Below, piece after piece: positions 10,312 through 28,943 of a DNA stretch of 35,827 bases. The stretch's first letter is position 1. Every line of letters starts with the position of its first letter. A program made the translations under genes and the position numbers. The notes beneath the pieces were generated by a model, which was not told the DNA's origin, searched no databases, and saw nothing but the letters and a program-made list of their open reading frames with translations. Source of the stretch: a virus; IMG/VR virus record IMGVR_UViG_3300037245_001760, positions 1-35,827 of that record. One strand, given 5' to 3'.

Positions 10312-11705
10312 CAACAGATAACCCTGATTTTAAGCATCCTGAATACTTAGCCCATTTTCCAGATTGGGGGATTTCGAGGGTAGTTTCAAAAGGGTCAAGG
10401 GCGGTTAAGTCTCAGGGGACCAAACTTTTGCCGGGGCTGTCAACACAAACCGATGATGATTATTCGACTTATAAACTAAACGCCATTTTTTACACGGTAA
10501 CAAAAAAGATAATTAGTATTTTGGCCGGGGCAGTATTTAGACTGCCATACACCACCAATGAAGATATTGGCGAGAAGGAAAAAGTAAAGCTTGAGTCAAT
10601 CTCAATAGATGGTTTGGACTTTTCGGAGTTCGCAAAAAGCACGTTGAACGAAATCTTGACGGTTGGCAGGAATGGTATTTTGGTCGAAATGACACCAAGC
10701 GGCGAGGCTGTTTTGATATCGTTCAAAGCTGAGAATATCCTAAATTGGTCGACTGAGCTGATAGACGGAAAACAAAAACTTTCATTAGTCGTTTTAAGAG
10801 AATTTATTGAAGAGAAGAAAAAGTTCGAGAGTAAAACAACCGAGCAACTGAGGGTTTTATTACTAAAAGAAGGCAAATATGTTATCGAGTTATACCGTAA
10901 AAGTGAAGATAAAACAGGCGAAAGTAAATTTGAGTTAAAAGAAACGACAACACCGGATAAGTTTGAGGAACCGCTTGACTTTATCCCATTCACTTTTATT
11001 TCTAGTGAGGACACGACACCAAAAGTGAAGGAAAGCCCAACTTTAGAAATTGCAAATATTAACCTTGCTCATTATCGAACGGATGCAGACTACAGGCACG
11101 GACTAAGATTCACAGCATTGCCAACGCTTTTATTAACTGGGTTCGATCCAGATGAAAAATACGCTGTTGGGTCGCAAACTGCGATAATTACGAACAATGA
11201 AAACGGAGACGGGAAGTACCTAGAATTCCAAGGGAAAGGATTAGACTCTTTAGTCGTAGCATTGGCAGACCTTGAAAGGCAAATGATCTTTTTGGGTGTG
11301 CAATTTGGCGAAGAAAAGAAAGGGGTCGAAGGGGACAAAAGCCAGATGATCCGAAAAAGCACTGGGCTTGCAACCTTGTCTAGTGTAACCAAAACCCTTG
11401 AAGCGGGGCTAAACCAAGCATTAAGATATTTAACAGAGTGGCAAGGGCTTGGTGAAATTAAGATTAGTTTAAATAAAGACTTTTTGGAATTTAAGTTAGA
11501 TGTTGAGGTCTTAAAAGTGTTGCAATCAGGTCAAGTAATGGGCCAAATACCTGCAAAAGTAGTAAATGAGTACATAGCAAGAGCCGGATTATTACCGGAC
11601 GATTTAAGTGTTGATGATATTCAGGCAGAGCTTGACAGTCAGCAAACAAAAGAATTTAACTCCAGTGGAGATAATAATAATGGCAATCAACAAAGAGAAG
11701 TTTGA
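10308..11705 (+). CDS. Portal protein (DUF4055-like)
   Basis: The product has 465 residues. HPEYLAHFPDWGISRVVSKGSRAVK and TKKIISILAGAVFRLPY at the start, and LNLAHYRTDADYRH-like NINLAHYRTDADYRHGLRF in the middle, are characteristic of the DUF4055 portal group. A late helical region (SSVTKTLEAGLNQALRYLTEW) would form the stem and crown. It makes the dodecameric channel at the head vertex through which DNA enters and leaves. Position directly after TerL and before scaffold and coat confirms it. Confidence 0.92.
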   Translation: MTTDNPDFKHPEYLAHFPDWGISRVVSKGSRAVKSQGTKLLPGLSTQTDDDYSTYKLNAIFYTVTKKIISILAGAVFRLPYTTNEDIGEKEKVKLESISIDGLDFSEFAKSTLNEILTVGRNGILVEMTPSGEAVLISFKAENILNWSTELIDGKQKLSLVVLREFIEEKKKFESKTTEQLRVLLLKEGKYVIELYRKSEDKTGESKFELKETTTPDKFEEPLDFIPFTFISSEDTTPKVKESPTLEIANINLAHYRTDADYRHGLRFTALPTLLLTGFDPDEKYAVGSQTAIITNNENGDGKYLEFQGKGLDSLVVALADLERQMIFLGVQFGEEKKGVEGDKSQMIRKSTGLATLSSVTKTLEAGLNQALRYLTEWQGLGEIKISLNKDFLEFKLDVEVLKVLQSGQVMGQIPAKVVNEYIARAGLLPDDLSVDDIQAELDSQQTKEFNSSGDNNNGNQQREV

Positions 11706-16212: not shown

Positions 16213-16686
16213 ATGGCCTTTGCAGTAGGGACAAATAGCTATATCAGTGTATCCGATGCGGACACGTATTTTTTAGACCGCAATAACTCTTTGTGGACTG
16301 GAACGGATGAGGTGAAGGAATCGGCTTTAATTAATGCAACAGATTATCTTGATTCTTTTTATTCGGGTCAATGGATTGGCAATGTTACCGACATAGATCA
16401 AATTTTAGCATGGCCTAGGTCCGGAGCCACAAACAGAAACGGCAAGTCAATTGATAGCACGGTAATTCCAGCACAAATCGAGGCGGCAACTTGCGAGCTT
16501 GCGGTTAAGGCTTTATCAGACACACTCAACCCGGATACCGATCCAGGCGGGCAAGTTAAGAAAGAAAAAGTTGGAAGCCTTGAGGTTGAGTACAATGATT
16601 ACGCCATCCCAGTGAAGAAATATAATTTTGTTCAAGATTTACTTAGGGGATTGATTGAAGCATCAAACAAATTAATAAGGTCTTAA
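16213..16686 (+). CDS. Head-tail connector, DnaT-like ssDNA-binding-domain type
   Basis: The product has 157 residues. NSYISVSDADTYFLDRNNSL, ALINATDYLD, ILAWPRSGATNRNG and VIPAQIEAATCELAVKAL match the phage head-completion family named in databases after a 'putative DnaT-like' domain; it forms a ring below the portal. The final part (GSLEVEYNDYAIPV) fits the beta arm. Position two genes ahead of the HK97 gp10-like protein supports the adaptor role. Confidence 0.82.
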   Translation: MAFAVGTNSYISVSDADTYFLDRNNSLWTGTDEVKESALINATDYLDSFYSGQWIGNVTDIDQILAWPRSGATNRNGKSIDSTVIPAQIEAATCELAVKALSDTLNPDTDPGGQVKKEKVGSLEVEYNDYAIPVKKYNFVQDLLRGLIEASNKLIRS

Positions 16687-16687
16687 A

Positions 16688-16933
16688 ATGGCGAATAAAA
16701 GAAGTATTGAAAATGCGAAAGAACTTGTGACCGTAGGCAGCGTTGAAAATGCCAAAAATACAAAACCAAAAATCAGTATTGAAAACGCAAAATATGATAA
16801 GAAAAAAAGGATTCTTTGCGATTCGTGCAAGCACCTTGCAAGACGGCAAAACGGTAATTTAATTTCATGCTCTAAGAATCTTAGAGGTATTATCAAACAT
16901 ACTTTTGATTGTGTAGACTATGAAATATCGTAA
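16688..16933 (+). CDS. Small Cys-rich protein with three SxENAK repeats
   Basis: The product has 81 residues. SIENAK (6-11), SVENAK (18-23) and SIENAK (30-35) recur at exactly 12-residue spacing in the basic N-terminal half. The C-terminal half has CDSC (44-47), Cys61 and Cys75, a probable zinc-binding knuckle. It may be a small DNA- or RNA-binding protein. Placement inside the head-tail block suggests an insertion (moron-like) between connector genes. I do not recognise the family. Confidence 0.65.
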   Translation: MANKRSIENAKELVTVGSVENAKNTKPKISIENAKYDKKKRILCDSCKHLARRQNGNLISCSKNLRGIIKHTFDCVDYEIS

Positions 16934-17158
16934 AAAACCCGTAGTAATCGATGCTATTATATTTGATGGTACTAATTATAAAGAATGCATGAACTTTCTT
17001 AAAGGGAATTTCGATCCGACTTTAAATTACCCTAATGTTGTCACACACGAAGGTACCGTTTCTATATCTATAGGCGATTATGTTGTTAGGGGGGGGTAAA
17101 GGATGATTACTACCCGTGTAAACCTGATATTTTTGAGCAAACACATGAGGCGGTATGA
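16920..17158 (+). CDS. Phage 'YPCKPDIF' protein split by a -1 shift at a G8 run
   Basis: ATG 16920 reads 59 codons (MKYRKKPVVIDAIIFDGTNY ... SIGDYVVRGG) to TAA 17097-17099. The remainder of a well-known small phage protein family, whose C-terminus runs GDY(I/V)(I/V)KG-VKGE-YPCKPDIF, follows in the -1 frame as VKDDYYPCKPDIFEQTHEAV, ending TGA 17156-17158 in an ATGA overlap with the next gene. The break is at eight G (17089-17096), with G GGG GGG in frame directly before the stop. This may be a sequencing error, slippage mutation, or programmed -1 frameshift. The function of the family is unknown. Confidence 0.75.
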
Positions 17159-17562
17159 GCAAGCAAACTAGGCGGGCAAAATGGTTTAAAATTGTAGGTA
17201 AGTTTGATCAATCGGTAAGTGGCGAAGTTCGCAGGGTTGGGAAAACGAATTACAACACCACAACAGGGGATTTTGACAAAACCTATATTGCTCAAGTCTG
17301 CAACATTGTAAGGGTGGACTCGACAAACGCGGACACTGAAAAGAATACAAAAAAGCCTGAGAATGCGTTTATTCTGGCTTTTAACGAAGTTCTGAGAACC
17401 TATACTGATTCAACATGGTCAAGTTTTACGGCAAGCACGGCGGTTCCTTTCGTGCCTAATAACGATGATGAGATTTATTTTGATGGTGGAACGACAAAGA
17501 ATTTTACAGTTAAAAATTTAGATGCTAATGATTTGGGCGTTTATGAGATCACAGCAAAATGA
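17155..17562 (+). CDS. Head-tail joining / virion structural protein
   Basis: The product has 135 residues, beginning MSKQTRRAKWFKIVGKFDQ. It is beta-rich, with GEVRRVGKTNYNTTTGDFDK and, at the C-terminus, FDGGTTKNFTVKNLDANDLG. It is probably the stopper or adaptor between connector and tail, judged by order (16213 connector, this gene, HK97 gp10-like, tail terminator, tube). Sequence alone does not give a firm family. ATGA overlaps at both ends show tight coupling. Confidence 0.65.
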   Translation: MSKQTRRAKWFKIVGKFDQSVSGEVRRVGKTNYNTTTGDFDKTYIAQVCNIVRVDSTNADTEKNTKKPENAFILAFNEVLRTYTDSTWSSFTASTAVPFVPNNDDEIYFDGGTTKNFTVKNLDANDLGVYEITAK

Positions 17563-17981
17563 CAACTAAACAAGAGCTTGTTAAATTCCAAAGCGGGTTT
17601 GATAAGACAATTGCAAGCCTGTCTAAAAGGTTGGGTGCATTTGGCAAAGCGATCCAAGAGGATCTTCTATTATTAAATAAGGTTGCAGCATTTAAATTTT
17701 TCGAGAATGTAATAAAAAGAACGCCTGTAGATACTGGACGGTTGAGGGCTAATTTTCAGATCGACACGAAAACGAACTCGATTAAAATTGATGCAACGGC
17801 AAAACCAGCGAATCCAAGTTTGCCCGCTTCAAAGATTTATTGGGTGTTCAATAATATCGATTATCTGATTCAGATTGAGCAGGGTAGTAGTAGGCAAGCC
17901 CCACAAGGGATGATTAAGCTTGCATTGCAACAGGTTGATGCTGAAATAATAAAAGAAATGAAATTAAGGGGTTTGATTTGA
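17559..17981 (+). CDS. HK97 gp10-like head-tail protein
   Basis: The product has 140 residues. The motif KFFENVIKRTPVDTGRLRANFQ is the hallmark of the HK97 gp10 family ('TPVDTGRLRxS/N'), followed by a strand region and the C-terminal segment QIEQGSSRQAPQGMIKLALQ. These proteins act at head-tail joining or tail completion. The start is ATGA-coupled to the previous gene, and its stop overlaps a TTG start. Confidence 0.9.
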   Translation: MTTKQELVKFQSGFDKTIASLSKRLGAFGKAIQEDLLLLNKVAAFKFFENVIKRTPVDTGRLRANFQIDTKTNSIKIDATAKPANPSLPASKIYWVFNNIDYLIQIEQGSSRQAPQGMIKLALQQVDAEIIKEMKLRGLI

Positions 17982-18382: not shown

Positions 18383-19804
18383 ATGTCCGAACTAGGCAGA
18401 CAGACAATATTTTCACAACAGGTGCACGTTAAAAAAGAAACAACAACAGGCACTCAAATCAAGCCCGCAAGTGACGGGACGGATGCAATCATCTTGACTG
18501 ATCTTGAAATCAATCAAGCGACTGGTAGTACGCCGAGCGATGAAATCCGCAACAGCCAAAACATAAAAGACCAAGTTCAAAACCAACCAAAAGCGGGGGA
18601 TTTTTCGGCTGGGATGTATTTTAGACCGCAAGGGGTTAATACTTCAACCAAAATTATTGATGGATTGATGGGTGATCCATTGCTTGAATCGTTGATGGGT
18701 ATAAAGCTAGCCTTTACAGCTCTGATTGACGGGGTAATTGCCACGTCGACGACCACAATTGATTTCACTGCTTTGAATTTGACTGCGAGTGAGGACATAC
18801 CGCAAAGAGGAACTATCACGGTTGCCGTGGGCGGTACTACTGAAATGATTCTTTATAATGGGGTAACAATCACAGGCGTGAGCGGGGCTTATGCTGGTAG
18901 TTTTAATAATTGCACTAGAGATTACGCTTTAGATGCTGCAACGATTACAGCGGGTGGCGAAACGATCACAGGATCAAGCCCAATCTACAAACAGAGCCTA
19001 ACAAGGCCGTCCAATTCGTTCTATAGAAAAAATGATGGTACTGGTAAGCAAGGGCGTGGTTTGGTGCTGGAAGGTGCAACAATTGATGTCAACGTTGATG
19101 GATATGTTCAACTTGCTTTGACTGGCAAGAACATGGGAACCGGAGTCACTGGTATTGGAAGCTTATCAGCCGATGCAAACGCCGTTGCAGATATTGTATT
19201 ACAATCAGGCGAAGCAAAAAAGTTTTCAGTTGGGTCATTGATCTTTAACGAAACACAACCAGCAAAAATTAATTACCTGGTCTTGGCAGTCGATCTCACA
19301 ACAGACACATTGACTCTTGATAGTGCTGTAACGACGTGGACAACAAGCGACGTTGTAAAAGCCTATTTGCCAGTTGATGACGTTTCAGCTTTTTTAGATG
19401 CTTTGCATTCAAAAGACACAGTTGTTTATTTTGACGGGGTTTCCAAGAAGGTCAAGGATACCACAATCAACATTTCCGCACCTGTTATAATGAATGAGGA
19501 TGAAATTTCACCTGATCCAATATCAGCGTATGTAACGGATCGAAGGGATATTAATTTATCATTAAACGTCCACCTTAAAAATTCTGAATTAGATTTTTAT
19601 TCGAATTCTATCAACGATGTCAAACAAAAGATTGAATTTAGATTCGGTGATGGAACGGCGGGTAAAACGGTTTGGGTTATTTTTCCAGTTTGTGCGATTG
19701 ATGCGCCTGTTGAAACAACCGATCAACCAAGTTATAATCTCGCAATCACAGCAACCGCACTTGATACGGTTCGTGAAGATTCTTGCTTCATCGTAGTAGT
19801 TTAA
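18383..19804 (+). CDS. Major tail tube protein
   Basis: The product has 473 residues, starting MSELGRQTIFSQQVHVKKET. Features typical of long tail-tube proteins are the N-terminal strand followed by DLEINQATGSTPSDEIRNSQ, and the repeated Thr/Val/Asp-rich beta domains. A central Ig-like insertion with TITVAGGTT-like turns and a C-terminal domain ending NLAITATALDTVREDSCFIV are also seen. Its size, greater than the usual 200-300 residues, implies at least one extra surface domain. It lies just before the frameshifted chaperones and the tape measure. Confidence 0.82.
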   Translation: MSELGRQTIFSQQVHVKKETTTGTQIKPASDGTDAIILTDLEINQATGSTPSDEIRNSQNIKDQVQNQPKAGDFSAGMYFRPQGVNTSTKIIDGLMGDPLLESLMGIKLAFTALIDGVIATSTTTIDFTALNLTASEDIPQRGTITVAVGGTTEMILYNGVTITGVSGAYAGSFNNCTRDYALDAATITAGGETITGSSPIYKQSLTRPSNSFYRKNDGTGKQGRGLVLEGATIDVNVDGYVQLALTGKNMGTGVTGIGSLSADANAVADIVLQSGEAKKFSVGSLIFNETQPAKINYLVLAVDLTTDTLTLDSAVTTWTTSDVVKAYLPVDDVSAFLDALHSKDTVVYFDGVSKKVKDTTINISAPVIMNEDEISPDPISAYVTDRRDINLSLNVHLKNSELDFYSNSINDVKQKIEFRFGDGTAGKTVWVIFPVCAIDAPVETTDQPSYNLAITATALDTVREDSCFIVVV

Positions 19805-19857: not shown

Positions 19858-20268
19858 ATGAAACTTAATTTTTCTGAGAAAAAAAAGTACACAGTAAAAG
19901 TCAAAGACGGGTTGGAAGTTGTAGTAGAACCTTTGAGTATGACAAGAGAGAACGAGCTTTTGAGACTTTGCAGAATTGAGAGAGGGAGTTCAAAAATTGA
20001 GGGTGACCTCAAGGGCAAGAACATGGTTAAAGCGGTTACTTTAAAAGATGACATTGACCACCTCGAAAACAATATTTTAGTCGCTCAAGAATCATGGAAA
20101 AGCTGGGATCTTGTCGACTCTACAAAAGGGAAACCAGTAAAATGCAACTCTGAAAATATCAGGTATTTATTTGACCATTTTTTTAAACTTGCTAATGATG
20201 TTGTCGTCGAATTTAACAACATGGTTGAAGCAGACAACGAAACACTTGGAAAAGAAAAAAAAACATAG
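19858..20268 (+). CDS. Tail assembly chaperone, short form (G-like)
   Basis: The product has 136 residues, starting MKLNFSEKKKYTVKVKDGLE. It has a beta start and then a helical region with ITLKDDIDHLEN-like KDDIDHLENNILVAQESWKS and EFNNMVEADNE. It lies directly between tail tube and tape measure, where siphophages encode lambda G-type chaperones. The gene ends ...GKEKKT with TAG 20266-20268 just after a run of nine A, allowing the -1 extension described separately. It binds the tape measure during tail assembly. Confidence 0.85.
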   Translation: MKLNFSEKKKYTVKVKDGLEVVVEPLSMTRENELLRLCRIERGSSKIEGDLKGKNMVKAVTLKDDIDHLENNILVAQESWKSWDLVDSTKGKPVKCNSENIRYLFDHFFKLANDVVVEFNNMVEADNETLGKEKKT

Positions 20269-23600: not shown

Positions 23601-23800
23601 CTTTAGAGGGTAGCCTTTTAACTCTTAACACAAGTTTGAACGACACGTTAACCCCCGCAATAACGAACTTAGATTCGTCTATCCAAGCTTTAACAGCGGC
23701 CGTTAATGCAGAGTTTACAACAGCAACCACAAAAGGCGGGGTTACTGCAATAGCACCCGATGGGTCAACTTTTACCCGTCCAGTTGCGAGGACTTTCTAA
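20609..23800 (+). CDS. Tail tape measure protein
   Basis: The product has 1063 residues, the longest gene. The N-terminus is Ala/Lys/Ser-rich helix, with a hydrophobic segment near 48-72. The TAPE-measure-type phage core follows (TTELLSIGQMAGQLGVKGSE; MTRATDLTGEAASTMLARIL). A Gly-rich hydrophobic segment lies at about 590-632 (GGQAIGAQVGGAAGGQIGG), and after it coiled coils. It sets tail length: at about 0.15 nm per residue, roughly 160 nm. It likely enters the host membrane through its hydrophobic parts during DNA ejection. ATGA-coupled to the GT-like fusion. Confidence 0.95.
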   Translation: MIVEIPFSADKAAKSTAKFSKALNESSSSMTKAGKTAKNLNSGISKTAKVAGVATVALTALAAAAATKLVLKALDNYRQFEKGLVGVGKTADLSGKALEDMGKQIADMSLRLPIATTELLSIGQMAGQLGVKGSENILNFTEVIAKMTRATDLTGEAASTMLARILNVTGEGIPQINKLASVIVALGNSSAATESEITQMTNEIVKVTALFKVSSGEAAAMAATMKSLGIQSELGRSAMSKTFQALNKLTKAGGKDLEKLAELTGMTGEQFKKTFKEDSTGAFQAFVEGLGKLDPTDVADKLKEFGLSGEGILNVLPVLAQKSALLGEKLNIVKKELADTTALNNEFARSLDTLDSRMILAENTWNNLLTTIGKEVEPQATIILEQFINLINDNKETIKSGAKLIAEGVSLVISSFDKILKFRKELEVAGKSFRAGLPVWMGGSKESVEDINRQIAAMKNLEFAQGKLAAKRKQIAADEKKIFDDREKRKKKAGSSESPNQRILASSGVDPLLGSQTARRKAAQETEDFLDDMLREEENGRKELEDQLHKDKLDNIAEINQSLKDGALTASGQFVADLISGSDRAVATLVSGLAQAGGQAIGAQVGGAAGGQIGGIVGGAIFGTFTAGIEQARLEAEKLAQGFKDLEQTQQDFNQEFKKATGKNEDLSEFTRIAATIRHFEALRAGTTGGSARQKAERQAFSKIILQLEQDLEKLRQSISQSIISNLGQIQALKDQKKAFVDSENETRTQARIIADSTAAIASLISEVSTLESQFVNLDTKSVGYDKILGDLADKSAELLEAEGERFNGLMTLINAEKSLKSEFVDYQKAFSESLNGKTIAELTQDFNMALSGIQGADGADGMQAAFDESNTILDQIAGLTQDSIGVQQNIIKTLEDSQKSIFDKIFELTSGGFSPDQTFAQKQSIFDTLVSKAQGGDPLDISRLLDFTDTFLQSAQDQFKSSQAFTDIFNNIVNDVLPSLLGTTEAGIQTAETEVATLEGSLLTLNTSLNDTLTPAITNLDSSIQALTAAVNAEFTTATTKGGVTAIAPDGSTFTRPVARTF

Positions 23801-23801
23801 A

Positions 23802-26426
23802 ATGATAAAGCTAAAGATAACTTATGATGGGACCGATTATTTTATCAGCCCAGACGACAAAGAGGGGATTGACCCAGACACTTCAACCCTTGTATTTTGG
23901 GCGGGTGCTTTACTCACATCCTCTGATATTATCATAAAGTCTGATTCTCCTTTTGGCGGGTATGTTGCAGCTCGAAAAGGTGGCTTCACTTTATCCCCTA
24001 ATGTATTGCCATTTCCAGCACCTAAAAAGGTTGCCGTCAAAATTTGGCAAGATTCCACAATTTTAGTCGAAGGGAATGCGATTTTAGAGAATGTTTTGGA
24101 TAGTTCGGTTTCTTATGAGCTTTATGAGCCGGAGTATGCACAAAATGCTTTAGACGTTCCAACCGCAAGCGAGTCAAAAATTTTAGACAGCAACGGGGTG
24201 ATTGTCGAAGGTGCGGTCATCCCCCTTTATTTTGGTGACGTTACTTTAAGGTCAAATTCTCATTTACTCGCAAGAAAAGAATTGAAATCGGGTGATCCTG
24301 CAAATTCTGCAAGGTTTTATGATTCTGGTCTTGATACAAGCTTAGTTGTGTTCGATGATGCGGTTGAAATTACCTCAAATGTTACGACTAGCACCGATGA
24401 GTTCATAATGGAGCCTAAACCGATAGGAGAGATCAGGGCACACGGAAGAAACACAACCTACAGCACTTTAAACGATCTTTTTAGTTGGGGTGCTACAAAA
24501 CTAGGGTTATCCTTGAACACCACCAACGCAAGGGCAACCAGTCCAGAACTTTCTTTCTTTTTAACGGAGCAAGAACGAGTTATTGACGTTTTAAACAAAC
24601 TTAGCGTAGCCTATGCTCATTTATTTTATATTAGAGAGGGGGTTTTATATCTTGTTGATATGCTCCTTTTCGGAACCACCCACGAATTGACAGAAAACGA
24701 TATCACAGAACATAGCTCAAGCTATAAATATGATAAACCAAGGGATTCAATTATATCTACATGGGTGGTTTCAAACCCCACAACAAACAACGCTGGATAC
24801 CCTTTGCAACTCGATATATCCAAGTCTCAAACTGTTTTGCTTGAGAGTACAACAGGTGCTAGTCGAAGGATTGAAAACTATTACCATGAGGTTGAAGTAT
24901 CGGGGGGCGAGTTAGTTAACACTGAGGCCATTTCTAACCTTAAAAATATTGGAACGATCCAGCAAAGGCCAAGTGCAAAGATCGAGCTTACTTTTGCCCA
25001 AGATATTAGCCCGGGTGATAAACTCACTTATACCGACACGACCTTACTTGATGATACAAATATTATCTTTTTTGCAAGAGAGCTCCAGTTTAATATGCAA
25101 CAAGATGCAAAACAAGTTATTGGTGACGGCATATTTTTTCAATCAATCGCCACGCCCACAACAGGCCAATCAGAGCATATTGAAAGCGGAGTTCTGAAAG
25201 GTCAATCAAGGTTTAGGTTTGGTGTTACAGTTGACCAGACCAATGCAGCAGATGCTGATTATACCACTTTAAAAGCCGCATTAGATGCTTTGACTTCGGG
25301 TGGGCGTATTTTTATTAGAAATGGTACTTATGATTTAAATAATTATGATCTGGGTAATTTGCCGTGGGAGCTCGAAGGACAAACACAAGACGGTGTAATC
25401 ATCCAAAAAAGTGTTGACGATGCAAACCCCTTATTTGATTTGACAACAAACGACAAAAGGGTTGTTTTTAAAAACTTGACCTTGAAGTCAGACGGGCACA
25501 CAACAGCGCATGAAATGATCGATGTAACGGGGGCGCCTGATTGTGATTTAATATTTGATAGCTGTGTTATTGAATCAGACCAAACAAGGGCCATTGATGC
25601 AACTAACAAAAGTCTAACTATAAGAAATTGTACTACTTTGTCAAAAATATTAATAAGACACCTGACGACTTCTACCTCTTTTGAAACTACCGTGAAAATA
25701 TTTAATAACACACTTGTCCAAGTAGCAGGAGCTGAAAGCCTGAGCAATCCAGTTATTGGACTTGGCGGGGCTCACAACACAAGATACGCCACTATTGACG
25801 GAAATAACTTTTCAAACGTTGTGGATGGTAGTGTTAATATAACAAACGGGCTTGCCACAGTTATAAACAATAAGATAATAAATATTCTGCCAACGGCAGG
25901 GCCAGCAAATTCTGATAGGGTGAGTATCAGGGTGCAGACTAGCGAGCAAGCGATTATCACAGGCAACAAAATATCGTTAGATGAGCCAGCAAACACAAGG
26001 GTAATGGGATTTCTGGCAATATGGGTTGCGAACAGCGGGAATTTGGAAACAAGTATTATTGCAGGAAACAAAATAACTCTAAAGTTAGAATTAGAGAATA
26101 CGTGGGGGCGCAACATAGAGGGAGTGACTTTGGCGAGCACAGATAGTTGTATCGTCAAAGAAAACACTATTAATATTGATGTTGACACTTACACGACACC
26201 TACAGCGAAAGCCCCCAATGGGGTTCATATTTCCGGATCAAGCGATAACGTGCAAGCAATTTCGAATTTTTTAACAAATACAAGAGCAAGTGGCACGGCT
26301 GGTGATGCGATATTGGTTGATTCTGGTGCGAACGATTGCGCCGTAAAGGACAACCGAAATTTAGCAGGATTTACGAATGTTTTAACCGACAACGGCACAA
26401 ACACAAAAATTTTGGACAATATTTAA
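23802..26426 (+). CDS. Distal tail protein with beta-helix (tailspike-like) C-terminus
   Basis: The product has 874 residues from ATG 23802, right after the tape measure stop; an in-frame ATG at 23760 lies inside the tape measure. Residues about 1-470 look like a tail-tip scaffold (strand-rich, with FFLTEQERVIDVLNKLSVAY and AHLFYIREGVLYLVD resembling tail hub proteins). From about 475, DADYTTLKAALDALTSGG then RIFIRNGTYDL open a right-handed parallel beta-helix of pectate-lyase type, with repeated N-N-x-I rungs to the end. The beta-helix could bind or cleave a host surface polysaccharide. No catalytic residues can be asserted. Confidence 0.82.
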   Translation: MIKLKITYDGTDYFISPDDKEGIDPDTSTLVFWAGALLTSSDIIIKSDSPFGGYVAARKGGFTLSPNVLPFPAPKKVAVKIWQDSTILVEGNAILENVLDSSVSYELYEPEYAQNALDVPTASESKILDSNGVIVEGAVIPLYFGDVTLRSNSHLLARKELKSGDPANSARFYDSGLDTSLVVFDDAVEITSNVTTSTDEFIMEPKPIGEIRAHGRNTTYSTLNDLFSWGATKLGLSLNTTNARATSPELSFFLTEQERVIDVLNKLSVAYAHLFYIREGVLYLVDMLLFGTTHELTENDITEHSSSYKYDKPRDSIISTWVVSNPTTNNAGYPLQLDISKSQTVLLESTTGASRRIENYYHEVEVSGGELVNTEAISNLKNIGTIQQRPSAKIELTFAQDISPGDKLTYTDTTLLDDTNIIFFARELQFNMQQDAKQVIGDGIFFQSIATPTTGQSEHIESGVLKGQSRFRFGVTVDQTNAADADYTTLKAALDALTSGGRIFIRNGTYDLNNYDLGNLPWELEGQTQDGVIIQKSVDDANPLFDLTTNDKRVVFKNLTLKSDGHTTAHEMIDVTGAPDCDLIFDSCVIESDQTRAIDATNKSLTIRNCTTLSKILIRHLTTSTSFETTVKIFNNTLVQVAGAESLSNPVIGLGGAHNTRYATIDGNNFSNVVDGSVNITNGLATVINNKIINILPTAGPANSDRVSIRVQTSEQAIITGNKISLDEPANTRVMGFLAIWVANSGNLETSIIAGNKITLKLELENTWGRNIEGVTLASTDSCIVKENTINIDVDTYTTPTAKAPNGVHISGSSDNVQAISNFLTNTRASGTAGDAILVDSGANDCAVKDNRNLAGFTNVLTDNGTNTKILDNI

Positions 26427-28243: not shown

Positions 28244-28492
28244 ATGCAAGTAGACTTTGACAATCTTTTAAAAATTTGGCCTATAATCGTTGCATTTGTG
28301 GTTTTCTTTGCAATGACTTGGAAAAACCAACGGTTAATCATTCAAAAGCTTTCTCAAATCGACATCAACTTAATCAGACACGATGAACATATTAATGAAC
28401 TTTTCCACCATAAAGAAGATTGTCTTAAACGGCGTGTTGATTGCGAAAAGAATTTTTTATCGAAGCGTGACCATAATCAAGCCCACACGTAA
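28244..28492 (+). CDS. Small single-span membrane protein (lysis-associated candidate)
   Basis: The product has 82 residues. One hydrophobic segment, WPIIVAFVVFFAMTW (about 12-26), is followed by an amphipathic charged helix and two Cys (EDCLKRRVDCEK). The layout suits an XhlA-like or i-spanin-like protein anchored in the inner membrane. Its position between the last fibre gene and a cell-wall-active candidate supports a lysis role, but there is no diagnostic motif. Confidence 0.55.
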   Translation: MQVDFDNLLKIWPIIVAFVVFFAMTWKNQRLIIQKLSQIDINLIRHDEHINELFHHKEDCLKRRVDCEKNFLSKRDHNQAHT

Positions 28493-28493
28493 A

Positions 28494-28943
28494 ATGGAAA
28501 TTGAGCTGCAAAGGGGCCTTGACAACGGAGTTTCCACAACAGGGCAATTAAAGATTGATGGCGTTTTAGAATGCTTCACACTTGAGGATACCGAACAGCC
28601 AATTAAAATTTTGGGGAAAACAAGAATCCCCTCTGGTCGGTATAGGATCAAGCTAAGGTTCAAGGGTTCAATGGTTAAGCGTTACAAGTCGAGATATAAC
28701 CTTGACGGGATGCTCTGGCTTCAAGACGTAAGCAACTTTAAATATATTTACATCCATATAGGCAATATATCCACCGATACAGACGGATGTATTTTAGTGG
28801 GCAACGGGTTGGATCAATCTGTTTTAGATGGGGCTGTCAAACAGAGCATAACCCACTCAACGGATGCCTACAAGTCCATCCACCCACAGATTGCAACCGC
28901 AATTGCAGAAAATCACAAAGTTTTTATTACAATAAAAGACTAA
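28494..28943 (+). CDS. DUF5675 family protein, possible wall-active lysis enzyme
   Basis: The product has 149 residues from ATG 28494 (MEIELQRGLDNGVSTTGQL); the start at 28383 would overlap the previous gene by 110 bases and adds unrelated residues. FTLEDTEQPIKILGKTRIPS then GRYRIKLRF and YIHIGNISTDTDGCILVG match the DUF5675 layout. The conserved His and Cys (H.G ... DTDGC) recall L,D-transpeptidase-like active sites. A peptidoglycan role is plausible, especially next to a membrane protein at the end of the late genes, but unproven. Confidence 0.7.
   Translation: MEIELQRGLDNGVSTTGQLKIDGVLECFTLEDTEQPIKILGKTRIPSGRYRIKLRFKGSMVKRYKSRYNLDGMLWLQDVSNFKYIYIHIGNISTDTDGCILVGNGLDQSVLDGAVKQSITHSTDAYKSIHPQIATAIAENHKVFITIKD

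Follow-up and report, generated by a model that had tools for sequence, protein, structure and literature searches.

A small, widespread phage gene of the phrog_419 type is split by a run of eight guanines abutting a stop codon, and an unprogrammed change in the length of this mutable guanine homopolymer, in what looks like an accessory gene, probably explains the split. The IMG/VR record is the entire window, i.e. the whole 35,827-base stretch analysed here, and represents a tailed phage carrying terminase, portal, P22-like coat and tape-measure genes. The zero-frame product of the gene, MKYRKKPVVIDAIIFDGTNYKECMNFLKGNFDPTLNYPNVVTHEGTVSISIGDYVVRGG, ends at a TAA directly after the eight G (junction DNA: ...GAT TAT GTT GTT AGG GGG GGG TAA AGG ATG...), confirming the claim of the earlier note that a G GGG GGG tract in front of a stop interrupts the gene. 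The 20 missing residues are intact in the -1 frame, encoded by GTA AAG GAT GAT TAC TAC CCG TGT AAA CCT GAT ATT TTT GAG CAA ACA CAT GAG GCG GTA TGA, and the TGA (17156-17158) overlaps the ATG of the next gene (17155) as ATGA.

Searching with the phrog_419 profile, we found that the 59 zero-frame residues score 46.9 bits (5e-12) and that the same residues followed by the -1 extension score 79 bits (8e-22) over the full domain. Scores in both frames indicate that the homology is not due to chance, and both the assignment to a known small phage protein and the intact C-terminus ending in ATGA, as the earlier note had proposed, are borne out. The codon-usage log-odds of positions 17100-17156 were +5.0 in the -1 frame versus -4.7 and -18.0 in the remaining two frames, and the YPCKPDIF motif lies in the -1 frame only, so that this copy does not carry the phrog_419 domain in one continuous frame. 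A distant phage homologue is annotated as PGDYG protein. Re-initiation as a source of the C-terminus was considered and rejected given that no start codon occurs in the -1 segment; the ATG at 17104 is in the +1 frame and opens an unrelated 22-aa peptide. As deposited, the gene is predicted to yield a truncated protein of 59 aa that is probably inactive.

Features of the split gene, its neighbours and the tail-chaperone site (window coordinates)
Feature	Position	Strand	Remarks
Head-tail adaptor, phrog_477	16213..16686	+	Upstream neighbour of the split gene, structural module
Zero-frame ORF, 59 aa	16920..17099	+	First three quarters of a protein of the phrog_419 family, cut before the conserved YPCKPDIF motif
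Eight-G run	17089..17096	+	In the zero frame the last seven read G GGG GGG
Zero-frame TAA stop abutting the G tract	17097..17099	+	
-1 frame continuation VKDDYYPCKPDIFEQTHEAV, then TGA	17096..17158	+	No ATG/GTG/TTG start in the -1 frame
Next gene, 135 aa	17155..17562	+	No family match; own SD-like GAGG upstream
Neck1/tail-completion protein, phrog_169	17559..17981	+	Downstream neighbour
Tail-chaperone -1 site, A AAA AAA	~20256-20262	+	Conventional; ORF 19858-20268 continues in the -1 frame to 20612

Examination of the homologues argues for a change in tract length. All of the 80 homologues fetched from IMG/VR (66 distinct proteins) read through the junction without a break and carry exactly one Gly there, positioned between a basic residue and Val or Ile; their junction G runs span 2 to 5, mostly with only 2-3 consecutive G. 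To compare tract lengths we scanned 2.9 million viral contigs and a genome collection with a pattern in which AGGGGGG, with 6-12 G permitted, precedes the family C-terminus, an exact pattern that divergent relatives could escape. The viral contigs yielded three family members, whereas none of the seven matches in the genome collection belonged to the family (3 of 10 matches overall). Two of the three relatives are intact, with six G in frame and a single Gly: L097 (AGGGGGGTAAAGGGC), which has AGGGGGGTAAAGG in common with the window gene, and L099 (AGGGGGGTGAAGGGC). The third, L098, has seven G that read in frame as Lys-Gly-Gly-Val (KGGV) within a degraded gene whose N-terminal half is broken elsewhere; this family copy lies at 1315-1422 on the minus strand of another phage record, and its N-terminal half and Gly-Gly junction are in different frames. 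In all three, the C-terminus continues the reading frame found directly upstream of the tract. Reading of the sequence agrees with the earlier statement that six or nine G would place the C-terminus in frame with the 16920 ORF, and refines it: with six G the product has the length seen in the family (RG-VKDD), whereas a -1 slip on eight G gives RGG-VKDD, one Gly above the family. Because relatives with six G at the junction are read through, an ordinary homopolymer indel is the most likely event, rather than programmed frameshifting. The earlier note had suggested comparing tract lengths in related phages. This comparison succeeded for the two intact six-G family members, but no close relative of the phage was found by megablast of the region against phages, by IMG/VR searches with the head protein, terminase, portal and 135-aa protein, or with an exact pattern spanning the tract; tract lengths were therefore compared across the wider family.

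The position of the gene suggests that it is accessory. An MCP search gave 15 relatives of the phage (39-54% identity), and in those carrying both the adaptor and the neck genes there is no phrog_419-type gene between the two; one MCP relative (L084) has a homologue of the split gene at another location. With no such gene in that interval in the relatives, the split gene looks like an accessory insertion, and a real loss-of-frame allele would plausibly be tolerated. The 135-aa gene downstream has its own SD-like sequence and need not rely on read-through from the split gene. Upstream lies an 81-aa ORF (16688-16933) without family match; it contains internal near-repeats (SIENAK / SVENAK / SIENAK), and its C-terminal half has Cys residues. 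Two further ORFs of the tail region, 18383-19804 (473 aa) and 23760-26426 (888 aa), are long and intact but matched nothing in Pfam or PHROG at the thresholds applied.

What caused the length change, when it happened and which way it went are inferred: the ancestor would have had a G tract in frame at the Arg-Gly-Val junction, either of six G, as in the intact relatives, or of nine G (Gly-Gly), and a gain of two from six or a loss of one from nine would have produced the recorded eight, putting the last 20 conserved codons out of frame. The in-frame Gly-Gly of L098 indicates that such a form can arise and thus that a nine-G ancestor is possible. Counting against a length change, the path from six to eight takes two steps or one double slip, while that from nine takes one, and the preserved -1 frame is equally predicted by programmed frameshifting. 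The intact -1 reading frame implies that the change either happened very recently or does not exist in the DNA. A recent slipped-strand allele in a tolerated accessory gene has somewhat less than an even chance of being the cause; a consensus error at the longest G tract, absent from the DNA itself, is a lesser but still substantial possibility. In a survey of frame transitions, Antonov et al. (2013, PMC3711429) expected sequencing errors to account for most singleton breaks supported by homology. The break coincides with the longest G/C homopolymer of the window, the next longest being six. By composition, a run of at least eight G/C is not rare, 0.2-0.9 being expected in 36 kb (Markov order 0-4). 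In 0.79 Mb of other fetched viral contigs there were only two, both inside open frames. Among the A9, A8, T8, G6 and C6 homopolymers only A9, which is the tail-chaperone site, coincides with a broken frame; the A8, T8, G6 and C6 runs were checked inside genes and are in frame. The contig is thus not indel-prone in general, and the assembly is good overall.

Besides the G tract, the only frame transition detected in the window is that of the tail chaperone. Codon-model transitions near 11652, 28420 and 33140 turned out on inspection to be ordinary gene overlaps; downstream of a small ORF (28244-28492), a DUF5675 (PF18925) / phrog_1501 protein is encoded at 28383-28943 in an ordinary overlapping frame. 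The tail-chaperone ORF has a weak match to phrog_313 and ends GAA AAA AAA ACA TAG (TAG at 20266-20268); its -1 frame runs into the beginning of the tape-measure gene and has a coding-like score. Hence, when the earlier note counted the G tract as a second -1 site, it was right that a first one exists. Programmed frameshifting at the G tract itself is quite improbable. It would have ribosomes slip on G GGG GGG before the UAA, producing a 79-aa long form beside the 59-aa short form, and programmed FRAMESHIFTING does find in AGG GGG GGG TAA a perfect re-pairing heptamer in the correct frame, with the stop as next codon possibly adding a pause and with an extension that is intact, of the right length, similar to coding sequence in codon usage and terminated by an ATGA overlap. 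The split, however, is conserved in none of the 80 homologues and is absent from the in-frame six-G relatives, the predicted product would have two Gly where all homologues have one, and the short form would lack the conserved YPCKPDIF motif. A 3' stem is likewise missing, three stretches at or after the tract giving z = +0.27, +0.59 and +1.22, compared with z = -1.88 for the region 3' of the tail-chaperone site, which folds somewhat better than shuffled sequence, and no clear SD stimulator was seen by eye 10-14 nt upstream. Furthermore, GGG-GGG heptamers are weak in E. coli, though other hosts could differ: in E. coli without a stimulator G_GG.G_GG.U was the least shifty heptamer (0.018%; no exact value for N = G was found in the main text), and A_AA.G_GG.G is summarized as the only efficient X_XX.G_GG.N motif (PMC4066793). 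A literature search by title and abstract found no case of phage poly-G recoding.

The earlier note had also raised a change in tract length, by mutational slip, phase variation or sequencing error, and this idea stands, with six G in the relatives, except for regulated phase variation, for which we found no positive evidence. That the tract acts as a contingency locus, turning the protein on and off across the phage population, is more improbable still than programmed frameshifting. It is a long mononucleotide tract in a coding region whose length (eight G) sets the frame, lengths of 6, 6, 7 and 8 occur among the relatives and the window, and poly-G tracts are a classic phase-variation element in Campylobacter and Neisseria (PMC6321876, PMC5953494). 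Against this, the tract is a short one of six G in the two intact relatives and only 2-3 G in most of the family, indicating that a long tract is not conserved; moreover, the phage has no other long G/C tracts and the gene has no recognisable surface or receptor-binding function. Overall, we consider it unlikely that G GGG GGG plus UAA is a second -1 recoding or phase-switch site setting the amount of accessory protein with or without the conserved C-terminus. An old split in an abandoned, decayed gene is the least credible reading and very improbable: L098 demonstrates that family copies do decay in structural modules, but an old pseudogene should have lost the C-terminus, which here is stop-free and adds 32 bits over 20 residues. 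Should the eight G prove real and be read by -1 slippage, the phage would have an unusual recoding site made up of G only and lying outside the tail-chaperone gene. Mainly, the case carries a caution: where relatives have an in-frame tract at the same codons, a metagenomic phage gene that breaks at a perfect slippery heptamer provides no evidence of recoding by that alone.

Compared with the PHROG family phrog_419 (unknown function), the phage copy has the signature MKYRKKPVV...GDYVVRG...YPCKPDIF across its two frames but is split at the junction where the fetched homologues are continuous. The homopolymer-indel singletons of Antonov et al. (2013, PMC3711429) resemble it closely: one family member is broken exactly at a homopolymer, the homologous continuation is intact in another frame and the break is not conserved. 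Indels in the G runs of herpesvirus thymidine kinase (reviewed in PMC5009743) similarly put a conserved C-terminus out of frame through a change in G-run length and are accompanied by low-level compensatory frameshifting, so that G slippage might in theory yield a small amount of full-length product here; unlike that system, ours is bacterial, and neither selection for the break nor a rescued product is in evidence. With the lambda G/GT-type tail chaperone the gene shares a slippery heptamer and a -1 extension overlapping the next gene, but it does not encode a tail chaperone and frameshifting is not a feature of its family, the real tail-chaperone site of the window being the A AAA AAA heptamer at about 20256-20262.
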